DNA from: Bacteroidales bacterium
Lineage (GTDB): Bacteria > Bacteroidota > Bacteroidia > Bacteroidales > Marinilabiliaceae
DNA: 36,977 nt
Direction: 5' to 3'
NCBI GenBank assembly: GCA_024401295.1
Contig: JAKSLG010000022.1
Location: 1-36,977, forward strand
Below are positions 23,268-29,433 of this stretch, piece by piece. A model generated the notes under the pieces. That model was not told where the DNA came from. It made no database searches and was given only the letters and a program-made list of their open reading frames with translations. The stretch's first letter is position 1. Each line of letters opens with the position of its first letter. Both the position numbers and the translations under genes were made by a program.

Positions 23268-24629
23268 ATGAAGAGAATTCTATCTTTATTTGTTTCTGCT
23301 TTGTGTGCTGTGGGTGCATGGGCAGAAGAGCCTCTGAGTGGCGAGTATGTCGACCTTGGCTTGTCGGTCAAGTGGGCGACATGTAACCTTGGTGCAACTT
23401 CTTCAACAGACGCAGGATGGTATCTAGCGTGGGGCGAGACATCGCCAAAGACAAATTATACTTGGGAGACTTATCTGTCATACCTTGGCGGTACAATGGC
23501 ATCTTTTAAAGATGCAGGTACTGATAAAGATCCACTGAAAGACTATGTCTATGGTGGTTCTCATTCTGAAGGTATCGGAGCTACAGCTTACGATGCTGCG
23601 ACAGTTGCTTTAGGTGCGGGCTACCGTATGCCTACACAGACAGAGTTTGCAGAGCTAGCAAATACGGACAACTGTGAATGGGTATGGTATGATGAAGACA
23701 ATACCGAATTCAATGGTGTAGCTGGCTATAAGGTAACATCAAAGAAGACAGGCTATACAGGCAACTCTATCTTCCTTCCTGCTGCTGGCTATCGTCGCGG
23801 AGAGGACCTCTACAACGAGGATCCGTACGGCTACTACTGGTCGTCAACTCCTGTCACGGGCGGTGCCAACTACGCGTACCGCCTCAACTTCGGTTCGGGC
23901 GACGTCGCCCCGAGCAGCTACTATGGCCGTTTTTACGGGTTCCCTGTTCGTCCTGTCTATGATGGTCCAGACCCTATCGCCCAGATCACCATCGGCGAGA
24001 CAACGACAGGATATGCTGACACATATTTGTTCAAGTCAGCCATCGAAGCTATCGAAGGTGTTGCTTCTATCAAATTCGTTGACAACGTATCGGGAAATAC
24101 CCCAACAACTCTATACTTGAGCGGATCATCAGATATCACAATCGACCTTAATGGCAAAAGCGTTGATAATATCAACTTTAACGTAAGCGGCAAGCTGACG
24201 ATCAATGACAGCAGTGAAGAGGAAACTGGCATGGTGACTTTTAACCCAGCATATCCTTTCGATGTAAATGAAGGAGCTGAGCTGATTATCAATGGAGGTA
24301 GCTTCTATGGAAGTTACTATGTAAATGGAGGTGAAGGTAGAGTAATTTTAAATGGAGGACACTTCAAAGAGGGATCTTACGGCGCACTCAGTGAATATGC
24401 CATTCTTGGCGAAGGCAAAGCTCTCAAGCTTAAGGACGGCACAATCATTACTGAAATCACTGAGACTATAACTCAGGATTGCGAGGTGATTGATGCGCCA
24501 TCAACTCCAACAGCCATCGAGTCAGTCAATGCCGAGAAGTCTGGTAAGGCAATCAAGACTATCGAGAATGGCAAGGTTGTGATTATCCGTGGTGACAAGA
24601 AATATGACCTTTCAGGTCGCGAATTATAA
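23268..24629 (+). CDS. Secreted FISUMP-domain protein with beta-helix region and conserved C-terminal tail
   Basis: A 453-aa exported protein. Signal peptide at about 1-19 (SALCAVGAWA). A FISUMP/lectin-like domain covers about 25-235: YVDLGLSVKWATCNLGA, YLAWGETSPK, GYRMPTQTEFAEL, FLPAAGYRRGEDLY, GYYWSSTPVTGG and GFPVRPVYD. It is followed by a beta-helix-like stretch at about 240-400 (DITIDLNGK, GKLTINDSSEEE, LIINGGSFYGSYYVNGGEG). The last about 26 residues are a tail, IKTIENGKVVIIRGDKKYDL..., that recurs twice in this window. The segment coding WSST to VRPV is much richer in G+C (about 64% over 23820-23930) than its surroundings, as if exchanged or diversified separately. Probably surface-exposed; ligand unknown. 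It has its own promoter and a downstream hairpin. Confidence 0.85.
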   Translation: MKRILSLFVSALCAVGAWAEEPLSGEYVDLGLSVKWATCNLGATSSTDAGWYLAWGETSPKTNYTWETYLSYLGGTMASFKDAGTDKDPLKDYVYGGSHSEGIGATAYDAATVALGAGYRMPTQTEFAELANTDNCEWVWYDEDNTEFNGVAGYKVTSKKTGYTGNSIFLPAAGYRRGEDLYNEDPYGYYWSSTPVTGGANYAYRLNFGSGDVAPSSYYGRFYGFPVRPVYDGPDPIAQITIGETTTGYADTYLFKSAIEAIEGVASIKFVDNVSGNTPTTLYLSGSSDITIDLNGKSVDNINFNVSGKLTINDSSEEETGMVTFNPAYPFDVNEGAELIINGGSFYGSYYVNGGEGRVILNGGHFKEGSYGALSEYAILGEGKALKLKDGTIITEITETITQDCEVIDAPSTPTAIESVNAEKSGKAIKTIENGKVVIIRGDKKYDLSGREL

Positions 24630-24746: not shown

Positions 24747-24808
24747 CCCTTCGTCACCACCTTGGGGCGGAACATAAATGGTGAACACTGGGAAAATATC
24801 CTGTCGTA

Positions 24809-24870
24809 TTTGTTGTTTATAGACAATAAATTCATATCTTTGTAGTGTTTGTTATTTATAGACAATGAAT
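24809..24870 (+). promoter_or_regulatory. Promoter of ATPase gene 1 with a two-copy direct repeat
   Basis: Two 23-bp copies (24809-24831 and 24848-24870, 21/23 identical, period 39) flank the -7 box TATCTTTG (24835-24842). The first copy carries TTTG/TTG in the -33 place. The second runs over the start codon of the ATPase (24865). Copy 1 contains the quasi-palindrome TTGTTTATAGACAA. This is consistent with a pair of operator sites bracketing the transcription start. Confidence 0.75.
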
Positions 24871-26073
24871 CTGCATAAAAGAGAGACATATTACAATCAG
24901 CTTTCACGATGGTTGGGTAAGGGCTTGGCGATAGTATTGACAGGGCAACGTCGTGTGGGCAAAAGTTGCATACTGAAACAACTCAAAGAAGAAAAGGAGG
25001 AAAATGCAGCTAATAATGTTATCTACATCGACTTTGAAGATGTAGATTTTCATCATGTCAGAGATTATCTGCAACTCACTGAATATATTGACGGTTTGAT
25101 ATGCGATGACAAGCATAATTATATACTGATAGACGAGATACAGGAGGTGCAGGAATTTGAACGTACGGTGCGTAACTTCATAAAGTATGAGAATACTGAT
25201 GTGGTGATAACTGGCAGCAATGCTCGTATGTTGAGTTCCGACTTGTCGACCATGCTTGCAGGTCGTTACGTTGAGATTCACATCCAGAGTCTGAGCTATG
25301 CGGAATTCCTGCAATTTAACGGCCTTGACGACAGCGATCAGTCGCTGATGAGATATTTGACTCTGGGAGGCTTGCCTCAATTGTGCCATCTAGGTATTGG
25401 GAACGACGAAATAGTTGAGGATTATCTCAAGAATATATACAACACCATACTGCTAAAGGACATAATTTCACGTGAGAAGATACGCAACATACCATTTCTC
25501 ACGAATCTATGCCACTTTATAAGCGACAATATTGGCAAACTGATATCTGCGACATCAATAAGCAATTATATGAAGACACAGCGAGCCGATGTGAGCTCGA
25601 ATGTCGTCATAAGCTATCTGTCATATTTTTGCAATGCATTTGTGATTGACAAGGTGTCGAGGTATGACATTCATGGCAAAAGGCTGTTCGAGATCAACGA
25701 CAAGTACTATTTTGGCGACATAGGCATACGCAACATGTTGAGTCGTGGCACAAGGCAGAATGATATAGAGAAAGTGATAGAGAATGCTGTATATCTTCAT
25801 TTGAAGAGACTGCAATACAATGTCTATGTGGGACAGTTACGCAGTTCGGAGATTGATTTTGTGGCACAGAAGGCGGACAGGACTGTATATGTGCAGTGTT
25901 CTTACCTGATAGCATCGCCAGAAACCTACGAGCGTGAGTTCGGCAACTTGAAGATGATAAAGGATAACCATCCGAAGATTGTGGTGTCACTGAACCCTAT
26001 GTTGGAGGAGGCCAACGAGAATGGCATAAGGCATATTCATCTGCGTCGCTTCCTGAAGCTTGGTGAGTTGTAG
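24865..26073 (+). CDS. AAA ATPase with DUF4143 C-terminal region (ATPase 1)
   Basis: A 402-aa cytosolic P-loop protein of the AAA_14/DUF4143 (archaeal-ATPase-like) group, abundant in Bacteroidetes and of unknown biological role. Walker A LTGQRRVGKSCI near residue 27, Walker B YILIDEIQEV near 93, sensor ITGSNARML, then LSYAEFLQFNGL, a hallmark of the family. C-terminal SSEIDFVAQKADRTVYVQCS resembles a PD-(D/E)XK core with QCS in place of ExK, as I recall for this subfamily, so no nuclease activity is implied. It is followed by a 34-bp repeat and cassette B. The start overlaps a promoter repeat. Confidence 0.85.
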   Translation: MNLHKRETYYNQLSRWLGKGLAIVLTGQRRVGKSCILKQLKEEKEENAANNVIYIDFEDVDFHHVRDYLQLTEYIDGLICDDKHNYILIDEIQEVQEFERTVRNFIKYENTDVVITGSNARMLSSDLSTMLAGRYVEIHIQSLSYAEFLQFNGLDDSDQSLMRYLTLGGLPQLCHLGIGNDEIVEDYLKNIYNTILLKDIISREKIRNIPFLTNLCHFISDNIGKLISATSISNYMKTQRADVSSNVVISYLSYFCNAFVIDKVSRYDIHGKRLFEINDKYYFGDIGIRNMLSRGTRQNDIEKVIENAVYLHLKRLQYNVYVGQLRSSEIDFVAQKADRTVYVQCSYLIASPETYEREFGNLKMIKDNHPKIVVSLNPMLEEANENGIRHIHLRRFLKLGEL

Positions 26074-26086
26074 ATGCTCTTCTCCC

Positions 26087-26220
26087 TTCGTCAATTAAAA
26101 CGGCACTTTCGTCAAAAAGGTTGATGCCAATGATTAACAAGACGGTGTACCGTCTCTACAAACGATAACCAATAATTAGGGAACGGGCATCTCCTGGGTG
26201 GGGGTGTCCGTTTTCTTTTT
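26087..26220 (+). repeat. 34-bp repeat plus tail/terminator cassette, copy B
   Basis: 26087-26120 matches 23146-23179 (33/34). From 26119 the sequence matches copy C (from 27607) through AGACGGTGTACCGTCT, a near-palindrome at about 26140-26155. It then matches copy A over 26179-26213, ending in a T-rich tract. It provides a hairpin terminator after ATPase 1. No tail coding sequence precedes this copy. Confidence 0.8.
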
Positions 26221-26238
26221 GCGTGAAGAAGCTTATTA

Positions 26239-26324
26239 ATTCCGAAAATCTTATAATAAATTTGGATTGGATTCCGAAAATCTTATAATAAATTTGGATT
26301 TGCGTGGTTGAGGTTATATATTTG
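26239..26324 (+). promoter_or_regulatory. Promoter of ATPase gene 2 with a perfect tandem repeat
   Basis: Two identical 30-bp units (26239-26268 and 26271-26300; period 32) lie directly upstream. The TTTG inside the second unit (26293-26296) is 20 bases from TATATTTG (26317-26324), 24 bases before the ATG. Each unit therefore carries a -33 box, but only the second is correctly placed. Confidence 0.82.
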
Positions 26325-26347
26325 CATCTGATAAATGGAAAGAAAAA

Positions 26348-27475
26348 ATGATAGAGAGAAATATAGGCAAAGACGTGACGAAGACTCTTGCTCGGGGCAA
26401 GGCGGCCATCATAATAGGGGCACGTCAGATAGGCAAATCGACATTGCTTGAGCATCTTTTTGCCGGAAGGAATGATGTGTTGTGGCTTAATGGCGATGAT
26501 TTTGACGTGCGTCAGATGTTTGAAAACATAACATCGACAAGGCTGAGAGCCATAATAGGCGACAATAAAGTTGTGGTGATAGACGAGGCGCAGAGGATAG
26601 CCGACGCAGGCCTCAAGCTCAAGCTGATAACCGACCAGATGAAAGATGTGCAGCTTGTTGCCACAGGCAGTTCGTCGTTCCAACTAACATCAATGATCAA
26701 TGAGTCGCTCGCAGGCAGAAAGCGCGAGTTGCGCATGTTTCCACTGTCGTTTGGCGAGATGGTGGCGCACACTAATTTCCTCGAAGAGATGCGCATGTTA
26801 CCGCACCGTATGATATATGGATACTATCCTGAAGTGGTGACGCACATCGGCGAGGAACGTGACATACTGAAGGAACTGGTGGACAGCTATCTCTATAAAG
26901 ATGTGCTCGAACTCGATTCGATAAAGAAGTCAGACAAGATAATGAGGCTGTTGCAGTCGTTGTCTCTGCAGATAGGGTCGCAGGTGTCTTATAACGAGAT
27001 AGGGCAGATGGTGGGACTCGACAGCAAGACCGTGGAGAAATATATTGACATCCTTGAAAAGTGTTTCGTCATATTTCGTCTGCCGTCCTATGCGCGTAAT
27101 ATGCGCAATGAGTTGAAGGCAAGCCGCAAAGTGTTCTTTTATGACATGGGAATACGCAATGCCGTGATAGGTAATTACACACCCCTGGAACTGCGCAACC
27201 CATCAGAGATAGGCGAGATGTGGGAGAATTTTGTGATTGCCGAGCGTCTAAAACGCAATGTGATGTCGGGCAGCAATGCGAAGATGTATTTTTGGCGCAC
27301 TCAGCAGCAGAGCGAAATAGACCTGATAGAAGATAATATGGGCCGACTTGACGCATTTGAATTTAAGTGGAATCCGAAAGCCAAGGCACGAAATCCAAAG
27401 CCATTCCTCGATGCCTATGAAGGCTCGACCTTCAATGTCATTTCGCCCTCCAACATCGAGGTGTTTGTCGGGTGA
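26348..27475 (+). CDS. AAA ATPase with DUF4143 and PD-(D/E)XK-like C-terminus (ATPase 2)
   Basis: A 375-aa member of the AAA_14/DUF4143 group, a different subfamily from ATPase 1. Walker A IIGARQIGKSTLLEHL near residue 22, Walker B VVVIDEAQRIADAG near 78, sensor VATGSSSFQLT, the arginine-rich SLAGRKRELRMFPLSFGEMV, and a helix-turn-helix-like VSYNEIGQMVGLDSKTVEKY near 218-237. The C-terminal end carries QSEIDLIEDNMGRLDAFEFK, a full PD-(D/E)XK signature (E-I-D ... E-F-K), so nuclease activity is possible. It is flanked by related cassettes B and C, and an orphan protein tail follows 16 bases after its stop. Confidence 0.87.
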   Translation: MIERNIGKDVTKTLARGKAAIIIGARQIGKSTLLEHLFAGRNDVLWLNGDDFDVRQMFENITSTRLRAIIGDNKVVVIDEAQRIADAGLKLKLITDQMKDVQLVATGSSSFQLTSMINESLAGRKRELRMFPLSFGEMVAHTNFLEEMRMLPHRMIYGYYPEVVTHIGEERDILKELVDSYLYKDVLELDSIKKSDKIMRLLQSLSLQIGSQVSYNEIGQMVGLDSKTVEKYIDILEKCFVIFRLPSYARNMRNELKASRKVFFYDMGIRNAVIGNYTPLELRNPSEIGEMWENFVIAERLKRNVMSGSNAKMYFWRTQQQSEIDLIEDNMGRLDAFEFKWNPKAKARNPKPFLDAYEGSTFNVISPSNIEVFVG

Positions 27476-27490
27476 TGTTGTCATCACTTG

Positions 27491-27571
27491 GCAATCAAAA
27501 CCATCGAGAATGGCAAGGTTGTCATCATCAAGAATGGTGAGAAGTACGACCTTGCAGGTAGGAAATTGTAA
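27491..27571 (+). pseudogene. Orphan copy of the FISUMP-type C-terminal tail
   Basis: Twenty-six codons (starting AIKTIENGKVVIIKNG, ending in DLAGRKL and TAA) match the tail of the FISUMP protein, but no start codon or protein body precedes them in this frame. The ATPase 2 stop codon lies 16 bases upstream. Homology to 24549-24629 begins abruptly at GGCAATCAA, and the cassette follows just as after the FISUMP gene. This is the 3' remnant of a lost surface-protein gene. Confidence 0.8.
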
Positions 27572-27716
27572 TGCATGTGGTGTGGAGACGCGGCATGCCA
27601 CCATGTGGTTGATACCAATGATTAACAAGACGGTGTACACACCGTCTCTACAAACGATAAAAAATAATTAGGGAAACGGATGTCTCCATTTTTTGGGGAT
27701 GTCCGTTTCTTTTTGT
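27572..27716. repeat. Tail/terminator cassette, copy C
   Basis: It begins TGCATGTGGTGTGGAGACG as after the FISUMP gene, continues into the copy-B-like sequence from 27607, contains the perfect palindrome AGACGGTGTACACACCGTCT (about 27629-27648), and ends in a hairpin at about 27674-27709 with TTTCTTTTTG. The hairpin sequence differs from A and B, but compensating G-T pairs keep the stem. The rest of the gap to 27763 shows nothing further. Confidence 0.8.
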
Positions 27717-27763
27717 TGTAGCATACATCTTTGGATATTTTCAGATTGTCAATGCCTGAAATC

Positions 27764-29095
27764 TTAGATTAATCCTGTCATATATACTGGCAATAGATTT
27801 GTCTGACCATCCTTTCGCATATCTTTGGTGTATATAAGATATCTGTCAGCCACGCGCTCTGAGTATTTCTCGCAGAACATATCCAATGATTTGTGCTTGT
27901 TGTAGCCCGACGACTTCACCTCTATCGGCATTATTTTGCTTCCTCGCGACAACATAAAATCTACTTCGTATGCGTGACGGCTGTTATCGTAGAACGTGTG
28001 GTAAAAGAGTTTAGAACCTGATGCCACCAACATCTGTGCAACAACATTTTCATACACGTATCCCATATTGGAATCAAGCTTATCACTCAACAGTTTCACG
28101 TATATTTCATTGTCTGAAAAATCCTTATCCCAAAATGCGAGAGTTACAAACAGTCCTGTATCGCTAAGGTATATTTTGTATGACTCGTAGTTTGCTGTCA
28201 TTCCGAACCCTACCTTAGGGTCACTTACATTGTGTGCAACATTTATCGTCTTGCTCTCTTTCATCATGGAGATGAGTTCAACTTTTTTCTTGAATTTGAG
28301 ATTCTCCACTATATTGCTTGAGAGGAATCTAGTTGAATTTTTGTATAATTGTGACGGAACAGACAGATAAATCGACTTGGCATAATCAGACGAATCTATC
28401 TTATGAAAATCGTTAGCATACAAATTGATAATGCCACGTTTCACCTTGTCGACCTTGCACATGTCGTTTGTCTCTATATACTCTTTTATCGCCTGAGGCA
28501 TGCCACCTACCAGCATATAAAGTCTGAAGTCTCGCATCAGTTTTCGGTTTATGTCGTCGCCAAGCGACATTCTGCCCATAAACGACTGGCGTATCAACTC
28601 AAATGTTTCAACATCTCCCAACGCCCATCTGAACTCCTCGTAATCCATAGGATGCATTTCCAGAGTCTCCTCCTCGCTTGGAATGACAATATTCTTGATG
28701 TTCTGGCGAATACTTATTAATGAACCGGTCTCAATATAGTCGTAGCGTCCATCGGCTACTAGATATTTTATTGCCTGGCGGGCAAGTGGATGCATCTGGA
28801 CTTCGTCAAAGATGATTACAGATTTTCGTTCATGCAATGATACTCCACCCGACAGAACCTTTAGCTTCATGAAAAACATATCAAGGTTTGTCATGTCATT
28901 GAACAAATTCTTTATATCTGCGGTTGTGTTGGCGAAATCGATGATTATATATGACTCATATTCATTCTTGGCGAATTCTTGGGCGACAGTGGATTTACCT
29001 ATTCGGCGAGCCCCTTCTATAAGAAGCGCAGTTCTGCCTTCTGCTTCATTTTTCCACTGAAGCATACGTTGATATATTTTACGTTTAAAAATCAT
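27764..29095 (-). CDS. AAA ATPase with PD-(D/E)XK C-terminus (ATPase 3)
   Basis: A 443-aa member of the same broad group but a third subfamily. Walker A LLIEGARRIGKSTVAQEFA near residue 25-43, Walker B SVIIFDEVQMHPLARQ near 95, sensor IETGSLISIRQ, then EEETLEMHPMDYEEFRWALG. The C-terminal domain has YEVDFMLSRGSKIMPIEVKS, a complete PD-(D/E)XK signature (E-V-D ... E-V-K). It is transcribed against ATPase 2, and its promoter carries three direct repeats. ATPases of this type are often found alone and are variably present between strains, but their task is unknown. Confidence 0.87.
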   Translation of the reverse strand: MIFKRKIYQRMLQWKNEAEGRTALLIEGARRIGKSTVAQEFAKNEYESYIIIDFANTTADIKNLFNDMTNLDMFFMKLKVLSGGVSLHERKSVIIFDEVQMHPLARQAIKYLVADGRYDYIETGSLISIRQNIKNIVIPSEEETLEMHPMDYEEFRWALGDVETFELIRQSFMGRMSLGDDINRKLMRDFRLYMLVGGMPQAIKEYIETNDMCKVDKVKRGIINLYANDFHKIDSSDYAKSIYLSVPSQLYKNSTRFLSSNIVENLKFKKKVELISMMKESKTINVAHNVSDPKVGFGMTANYESYKIYLSDTGLFVTLAFWDKDFSDNEIYVKLLSDKLDSNMGYVYENVVAQMLVASGSKLFYHTFYDNSRHAYEVDFMLSRGSKIMPIEVKSSGYNKHKSLDMFCEKYSERVADRYLIYTKDMRKDGQTNLLPVYMTGLI

Positions 29096-29119
29096 CTCTC
29101 CTTCAATTGGTTACAACCG

Positions 29120-29220
29120 CAAATGTAGACAAAATGCTCTTAATCGCAAATTTCAAAACACGTAAAATGCTTCTAATCGCAAAATTTATAAAATACAAAA
29201 ATGCTTCTAATCGCAATTTT
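29120..29220 (-). promoter_or_regulatory. Promoter of ATPase gene 3 with three direct repeats
   Basis: On the minus strand TTTG (29150-29147), 19 bases, then TACATTTG (29127-29120), 25 bases before the ATG. Three copies of a 23-24 bp unit lie at 29131-29153, 29164-29187 and 29198-29220 (periods 33 and 34). Each contains TTTGCGATTA or a near variant, and the proximal copy supplies the -33 box. Confidence 0.82.
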
Positions 29221-29301: not shown

Positions 29302-29433
29302 ATGAAAACAACTCTAATCCTTTTGTCTTCTGCAGTCATTGCCACTGGCGTATGTGCGCAGAACACTGAGAATGGTCAGGTAGTGATTGTCAAGGATGGT
29401 GAGAAATATAACTTGGCAGGCATAAAGTTATAA
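29302..29433 (+). CDS. 43-aa mini-protein: signal peptide fused directly to the conserved tail
   Basis: The frame has an N-terminal signal peptide (MKTTLILLSSAVIATGVCAQ, cleavage near 19-20) followed at once by the tail NGQVVIVKDGEKYNLAG plus four residues, and TAA. The tail matches the C-terminus of the FISUMP protein and the orphan copy after ATPase 2. There is no protein body. It is either a deletion product of a larger surface protein or a functional secreted peptide; start, -7 box and stop are all intact. A small CAGACG/CGTCTG hairpin follows (29441-29460). Confidence 0.65.
   Translation: MKTTLILLSSAVIATGVCAQNTENGQVVIVKDGEKYNLAGIKL

Follow-up and report, generated by a model that had tools for sequence, protein, structure and literature searches.

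Private repeated operators predicted at the promoters of three paralogous PDC-S01 ATPase genes in a Bacteroidales bacterium

The contig JAKSLG010000022.1 of a Bacteroidales bacterium (assembly GCA_024401295.1) was analysed over its whole length of 36,977 bases, hereafter the window, and belongs to a genome of 2.3 Mb that is approximately 75% complete. It contains three adjacent genes, numbered here 1 to 3 (Table 1), each encoding a protein with AAA_14 and DUF4143 domains and each preceded by direct repeats at its promoter; we are concerned with these repeats and with the proteins that may read them. The original prediction, made from the letters of this DNA, had called the three ATPases unrelated, which they are not: they share both domains and align in pairs at 21-25% identity over 142-280 columns, i.e., over part of their length, which makes them distant paralogues. 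All three are matched over their whole length by the PADLOC profiles of PDC-S01 (residues 2-398 of 402, 1-374 of 375, and 1-442 of 443 for genes 1, 2, and 3), with E-values of 1.6e-140, 2.2e-156, and 7.5e-96. They carry a candidate PD-(D/E)XK-like, nuclease-like part, whose motif is conserved in 61 sequences, with D325 invariant and E323, E338, and K340 each present in at least 90% of them. The stretch EIDFVAQK...VYVQCSY of gene 1, which we take to be this motif, lacks the lysine that we assume to be usual there, so part of the PDC-S01 family may be non-catalytic, with gene 1 as an example. A search by sequence for a relative of solved structure gave one unconvincing match, a GTPase (E 0.08), and no ParA family was found among the matches listed, the ATPase domain of the window proteins being AAA_14.

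Table 1. Positions in the window of the three ATPase genes, their promoter boxes, and the associated repeats.
Feature	Position	Strand	Description
ATPase gene 1	24865..26073	+	402 amino acids, AAA_14 and DUF4143; PDC-S01 model PDLC04787
Repeat 1, gene 1	24802..24831	+	holds palindrome TTGTTTATAGACAA (24813-24826), between -33 and -7 boxes
Repeat 2, gene 1	24841..24870	+	from the downstream side of the promoter into the start codon (24865)
Boxes, gene 1	TTTG (-33) 24809; TATCTTTG (-7) 24835	+	gap 22
ATPase gene 2	26348..27475	+	375 amino acids, AAA_14 and DUF4143; PDC-S01 model PDLC04789
Repeat copy 1, gene 2	26239..26268	+	30 nt
Repeat copy 2, gene 2	26271..26300	+	includes the -33 TTTG (26293)
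Best operator dyad, gene 2	26260..26279	+	ATTTGGATTG/GATTCCGAAA, spans the copy junction
Boxes, gene 2	TTTG (-33) 26293; TATATTTG (-7) 26317..26324	+	gap 20
Predicted winged helix-turn-helix, gene 2	26972..27067	+	residues 209-240, of which D225, S226, and K227 covary with the operator
ATPase gene 3	27764..29095	-	443 amino acids, AAA_14 and DUF4143; PDC-S01 models PDLC04786/04792
Repeat closest to gene 3	29131..29150	-	includes the -33 TTTG (from 29150)
Middle repeat, gene 3	29164..29183	-	core of unit
Distal repeat, gene 3	29198..29217	-	core of unit
Boxes, gene 3	TTTG (-33) from 29150; TACATTTG (-7) 29127-29120	-	gap 19

The direct repeats predicted at the three promoters are real and stand above dinucleotide shuffles, with minor corrections of register. 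Those of gene 1 are 30 nt long, 87% identical, and spaced by 39; the two copies of gene 2 are identical at 30 of 30 positions, linker included, at a spacing of 32; and gene 3 has three copies at spacings of 33 and 34. The scores of genes 1 and 2 were reached by none of 200 dinucleotide shuffles, and gene 3 had a score of 19, where 50 shuffles gave no more than 11. A distance of 19-22 between the TTTG and TAnnTTTG boxes had also been read correctly (gaps in Table 1). For gene 2 the presence of the repeat holds and its register does not, because the best palindrome spans the junction between the two copies and the repeat as originally drawn was thus out of phase with it. Within limits, the units are private, as had been supposed: allowing three mismatches, a search of the available 75% or so of the genome found each of them at its own promoter and nowhere else (2, 2, and 3 copies), and no regulon was seen.

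The evidence on what reads these repeats comes from the subfamily of gene 2, whose named loci are the best 80 of at least 509 relatives (in at least 588 stretches). These are mostly from Bacteroidota and include metagenome-assembled genomes (MAGs) titled Spirochaetia, Chlorobiaceae, Desulfobacteraceae, Delongbacteria, WOR-3, and others. Most have a palindrome of the form TTTGGATTnnAATCCAAA, often recurring at 32 bp with an AT-rich linker. In 87 loci, a motif search on the DNA alone arrived at T T T [TGCA] [GCT] G A [AT] T N as the half-site; in some loci, e.g., L135 (Spirochaetia) and L149 (Delongbacteria), this search found no good site. Palindromic sites with a leave-one-out score of at least 8 precede 68 of the 80 genes vs 6 of 270 controls, and direct repeats with a period of 31-33 precede 42 of the 80 vs 2 of 270. 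A -7 box could be recognised in 55 of 78 loci (3.5 in shuffles), and in 50 of these 55 the dyad lies 15-18 bp, modulo 32, upstream of the box, a phase that places one site position between the two promoter boxes. For gene 2 of the window, the -7 box is 47 bp downstream of the dyad centre (15 modulo 32), and no more than half-sites lie 32 bp away on either side. The operator of the gene 2 subfamily is locked to the promoter, as supported by these computations.

The bases of this operator change together with a few residues of the protein. The predicted winged helix-turn-helix (HTH), 32 of the 375 residues, is matched by Pfam HTH_24 and HTH_11 at residues 211-240 of gene 2, below the cut-offs (E 0.04 and 0.11), and HTH_11 is found in 24 of 61 sequences (best E 7.9e-5). 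We measured covariation in 74 loci, i.e., the 87 relatives minus nine with a site score below 8 and four redundant ones (median identity 53%). Mutual information was highest between base 4 and protein column 226, base 5 and column 227, and base 6 and column 225; scanning outwards from the dyad, bases 3, 4, 5, 6, and 7 pointed to columns 216, 226, 227, 225, and 227, all of them in the HTH, while for none of the 11 linker positions at 12-22 from the dyad was the best column there. The pairing is close to a code: Lys227 goes with G at base 5 in 73 of 74 half-sites, Glu227 with C in 18 of 20, and Asn227 with T in 11 of 12, and Asp225 goes with G at base 6 in 136 of 136. Lys227 and a G at base 5 in both halves are either both present or both absent in 71 of 74 loci. 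Shared ancestry was modelled by simulating each base 1000 times on a tree that excluded the HTH columns and by ranking 306 columns. Residue 227 ranked first of the 306 for each half-site separately, with mutual information of 0.79 and 0.93 that exceeded all 1000 simulations (maxima 0.42 and 0.52), and base 5 has changed at least 20 times on the tree.

The rule also predicts sites that did not serve to establish it. We took 65 further loci whose best match to the training set was less than 85% identical and picked their sites ignoring bases 3-5; two of these genes, L280 and L281 (the same as L084 and L086), had been in the motif search, outside the 74 rule-setting loci. The rule for residue 227 was fixed beforehand from the table of half-sites. 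Applied without score threshold to the 36 loci where this residue is K, E, N, or Q, it gave the right base 5 in 53 of 72 half-sites, against a shuffled mean of 26.9 and maximum of 42 (K-G 14 of 18, E-C 4 of 4, N-T 32 of 46, Q-C/A 3 of 4), and in 25 of 28 when the site score was at least 8. When base 6 was hidden as well, base 5 was right in 49 of 72 half-sites (shuffled mean 27.0) and Asp225 met G in 39 of 54. It is supported by computation that proteins of the gene 2 type would use the beginning of the recognition helix to read their own operator. The earlier suggestion that every promoter repeat is recognised by its own ATPase or by a partner has thus gained support and, for this subfamily, is narrowed to the ATPase itself by the covariation and the held-out prediction. 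Separately, among held-out relatives with Ser225-Lys226-Asn227, 6 of 13 have GTCA in both half-sites (L281, L326, L328, L331, L334, and L335) and the other seven do not, which suggests an additional rule linking Ser225 to C at base 6, first noticed in these held-out loci.

Direct repeats are common upstream of related genes in the genus. In 15 genomes we found 137 matches, of which 83, mostly the better-scoring ones, were taken, and 80 had a usable frame; one of these, with less than 120 bp upstream, was left out of a first scoring. With independent calling of open reading frames, eleven ambiguous frames excluded, and a score threshold of 14, a direct repeat was found upstream of 60 of these 80 genes vs 18 of the 284 other genes on those stretches of DNA; among controls with at least 100 bp of free upstream DNA the count was 16 of 189, and at least six of the 18 positive controls share their intergenic array with a divergent ATPase. 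The best period in the 60 promoters was 32-34 in 46, 22-23 in four, 65-66 in four, and 39, 41, 44, 52, 74, and 76 in the remaining six, i.e., mostly close to whole helical turns. When repeats or palindromes were counted if they beat 40 shuffles, 65 of 79 genus genes had them. All seven DUF4143 matches in the genome of the window are preceded by a direct repeat, the weakest of which (L007, score 14) stood above 200 shuffles in one test and did not exceed the best of 50 in another.

As judged by eye, the members of a protein cluster have units in common; a core near GAAAAAGTGTA recurs in c2, c3, c5, and c6, whose flanks differ, and the units of the remaining clusters are wholly different. The gene 3 units are largely retained in one orthologue (L218, 96% identical), in which the spacers drift, and in the gene 1 subfamily the best period is 39-41 in 10 of 30 loci (score of at least 12). 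In cluster c14 and its phylum-wide relatives, with matches in 36 genomes of more than ten families of Bacteroidota, 27 of 33 loci carry two or more TGAGTAA/TTACTCA half-sites, where shuffles predict 0.02 and the 284 control genes have none; this count leaves out the truncated locus L215, and the motif was already known from some of these loci. The spacings of these half-sites are mostly 9, 13, and 22 (42 of 45). In clusters c15 and c17, a GGA half-site was seen by eye upstream of five of six proteins with Asp225 and Lys227, consistent with the code of gene 2. A phage-borne origin of the system was considered and dropped: there was one partial match in IMG/VR, and a tblastn search with gene 2 matched 13 of 72,556 plasmid records and 5 of 50,697 phage records, so its subfamily is rare on both.

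Some further observations concern the surroundings of the arrays. The repeat array is common to the ATPase and a divergent gene at L040, L063, L045, L065, L068, and L070. Neighbours were scanned at L040 and L063, and the HEC-06/Orf5 defence models match a part of the divergent gene of L040; some operators may thus serve two genes. Two loci (L366 and L373) from the genome of a Treponema MAG, that of L177, have 33-bp repeats with cores AAAAATGTGTAA and TACACTTTTT that resemble the core of c2, c3, c5, and c6. In the window, two short relics (27485-27571 and 29302-29433) have a C-terminal tail resembling that of a secreted-like protein (23268-24629; IENGKVVIIKNGEKYDLAGRKL). The second relic is a frame of 43 amino acids in which a start resembling a signal peptide is joined directly to the tail, the middle of the gene being seemingly lost. 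Comparable tails lie upstream of ATPases in the relatives L056 and L030, and this recurrence points to a possible common insertion point.

Taken together, the data make it very probable that each ATPase of the window binds, and most likely represses, its own promoter through a private repeated operator. A single chain would combine the ATPase, a winged HTH, and a PD-(D/E)XK-like part, and would bind an operator that is repeated in its own promoter mostly at whole helical turns. Since the predicted operator overlaps the promoter boxes, lying on and between them, its occupation would most likely block RNA polymerase and result in negative autoregulation, as judged from this geometry. Binding may be controlled by the nucleotide state of the AAA domain, for which RepA proteins offer a reported precedent (PMC4492784). 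Loss of the protein from the operator, perhaps when a phage or plasmid enters, would then increase the expression of an effector nuclease; the antiviral function, the trigger, and the repression itself are all inferred here. By analogy, the arrangement would extend to genes 1 and 3, each with its own motif. The tip of the recognition helix changes in step with the operator, and the paralogues are therefore expected to be insulated from one another. Of the self-versus-other recognition proposed originally, this insulation is the part that is indicated, and we saw no sign of a discrimination between self and foreign DNA. One can go further and imagine PDC-S01 proteins as self-tethered sensors, whose rings or filaments on a phased promoter array silence both gene and nuclease until invader DNA or a phage factor removes the protein, inducing the gene and arming the nuclease; fast exchange of helix and operator would keep paralogues mutually blind and let a newcomer copy be expressed in a naive host. 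We regard this extension as possible but doubtful.

A number of results weigh against repression by the cognate ATPase through private operators. At the threshold, 20 of the 80 genus ATPase genes have no repeat. The pattern is less regular beyond the genus, with repeats or palindromes beating 40 shuffles at 13 of 27 genes in the phylum and 12 of 30 in other MAGs, against 39 of 189 controls, i.e., about twice the control rate, so the enrichment that had been expected over shuffles and other genes stands in the genus (60 of 80 vs 18 of 284), is weak as a general rule outside it, and dense arrays of direct repeats seem a speciality of the genus and of some subfamilies. Repeats of any period precede 45 of the 80 gene 2 subfamily genes and also 26 of 270 controls, and the motif search had been seeded by eye and favoured palindromes. 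The same covariation test pointed neither way in the subfamilies of gene 1 (33 sequences) and gene 3 (32 sequences), where sites are hard to align. In the gene 2 subfamily itself, linker positions reach a z of 12 through relatedness alone, position 11 has its best column in the HTH (a near-invariant one), and position 23 has it at residue 225. Under the tree-aware null, residue 225 also ranks first, with only three changes of base 6. Base 4 has residue 226 in second and first place, and base 3 has residue 216 in second place both times (P 0.001 and 0.006). In held-out loci residue 226 predicts base 4 weakly (49 of 84 vs 43.9, P 0.04). Finally, neither a test on 37 sister pairs nor one on pairs separated by supported branches (one pair for K227) pointed to the helix, with few informative pairs in each.

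These results have to be set against other explanations of the repeats. If the ATPase bound its operator and activated its own promoter, a positive feedback would result, and the strongest dyad in many relatives, including gene 2 of the window, does lie 46-49 bp upstream of the -7 box, where activators can act. The 32-bp phase, however, also gives a position 15-18 bp upstream of this box, where the best dyad itself is found in other loci, and the copies of gene 1 flank the -7 box and extend to the start codon, which leads us to consider activation unlikely. A separate regulator could instead bind the repeats, with the ATPase merely co-evolving with it. Binding by the ATPase is itself deduced from sequence, and the arrays shared with divergent genes at the six loci listed above could suit such a regulator; yet the covariation peaks inside the HTH of the ATPase and predicts held-out sites, the motifs track the ATPase subfamily across families of Bacteroidota, and the three window units are found at these promoters alone, so that a regulator of this kind seems very improbable.

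Two further explanations were weighed. The original prediction had offered slippage, with expression tuned by repeat copy number, and repeats that were slippage products or phase-variable elements would fit the range of two to seven copies in the genus and the identity of the two gene 2 copies down to their linker. Closely related genes speak otherwise: among 14 pairs at least 90% identical in protein, not all of them independent, copy number is equal in 12 (including two 0/0), the unequal ones being 5/6 in one pair and 0/3 in another that is 93% identical. Copy number being mostly constant between such relatives, the phase-variable tandem repeat was rejected, and the clustering of best periods at 32-34 and the covariation of sites with protein residues leave little credence for tuning by slippage. 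The repeats might also mark an insertion site, or be a CRISPR-like or recombination array lying upstream by chance, and ATPases do adjoin 3'-end relics of secreted-protein genes in the window, L056, and L030. But spacing and promoter phase are alike in many organisms and the palindromic units hold their symmetry even where the letters change, making this account barely credible. CRISPR arrays have unique spacers of a length similar to the repeat, and units of about 20-30 bp placed every 32-39 bp leave gaps of about 2-14 bp, too short for spacers; a CRISPR array was therefore discarded.

Repression by the cognate ATPase, the reading that we retain, bears on a widespread family. PDC-S01 is a phage defence candidate of PADLOC-DB in which an ATPase is fused to a member of PD-(D/E)-X-K (PMC12988326); it is reported to rank fourth by frequency among the defences of prokaryotes (PMC12988326) and first among individual loci in a survey of rumen genomes (PMC13356809). 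Most candidates of this sort still await validation (PMC12988326), and the window proteins, all of which match its models, have an antiviral role as candidates only. The words "operator", "winged", and "autoregulat" are absent from the main text of PMC12988326, and no operator of the DUF4143/PDC-S01/AAA_14 family is described in the literature that we searched, a search whose AAA_14 term matched unrelated texts and whose scope left out many subscription papers and bioRxiv preprints. The predicted DNA target, the reading residues, the base-residue rule, and the promoter geometry can be tested with one protein and one oligonucleotide. The operator could allow expression to be tracked, paralogue specificity would become predictable from sequence, and the hunt for a trigger would turn into reporter screens. 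PDC-S01 may also supply a natural set of mutually insulated repressors.

Parallels are found in several known systems. In toxin-antitoxin systems and restriction-modification controllers a potentially harmful activity is negatively autoregulated at a private operator, and the DNA binder is usually a separate antitoxin or C protein, whereas here the ATPase, the DNA-binding part, and the nuclease-like part are in one chain. ParA and RepA have a ParA-family ATPase encoded in an operon with ParB and are not known to have a nuclease-like domain; unlike them, the window genes are single, encode AAA_14 and DUF4143, and have arrays at about 32 bp. The likeness lies in the HTH of the gene 2 subfamily, which is predicted to read a site of the promoter of its own gene. 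Type Ia ParA and RepA are autorepressor ATPases that act on repeated or palindromic sites of their own promoters, ParA with a winged HTH, and in one bacterium the RepA proteins bind to their respective operators specifically in the presence of ADP (PMC8465637, PMC4492784). TT_P0211 of Thermus thermophilus has AAA_14, DUF4143, and HTH motifs, as the window proteins do, and its RNA rises 6.6-fold in plasmid-carrying HB27, a change that is absent without Argonaute (PMC4406477); this response agrees with an inducible gene, without being a proof. Autoregulating ATPases are thus known, in ParA and RepA, and what would be new is the same principle in the PDC-S01 family, with a recognition code and insulated paralogues.

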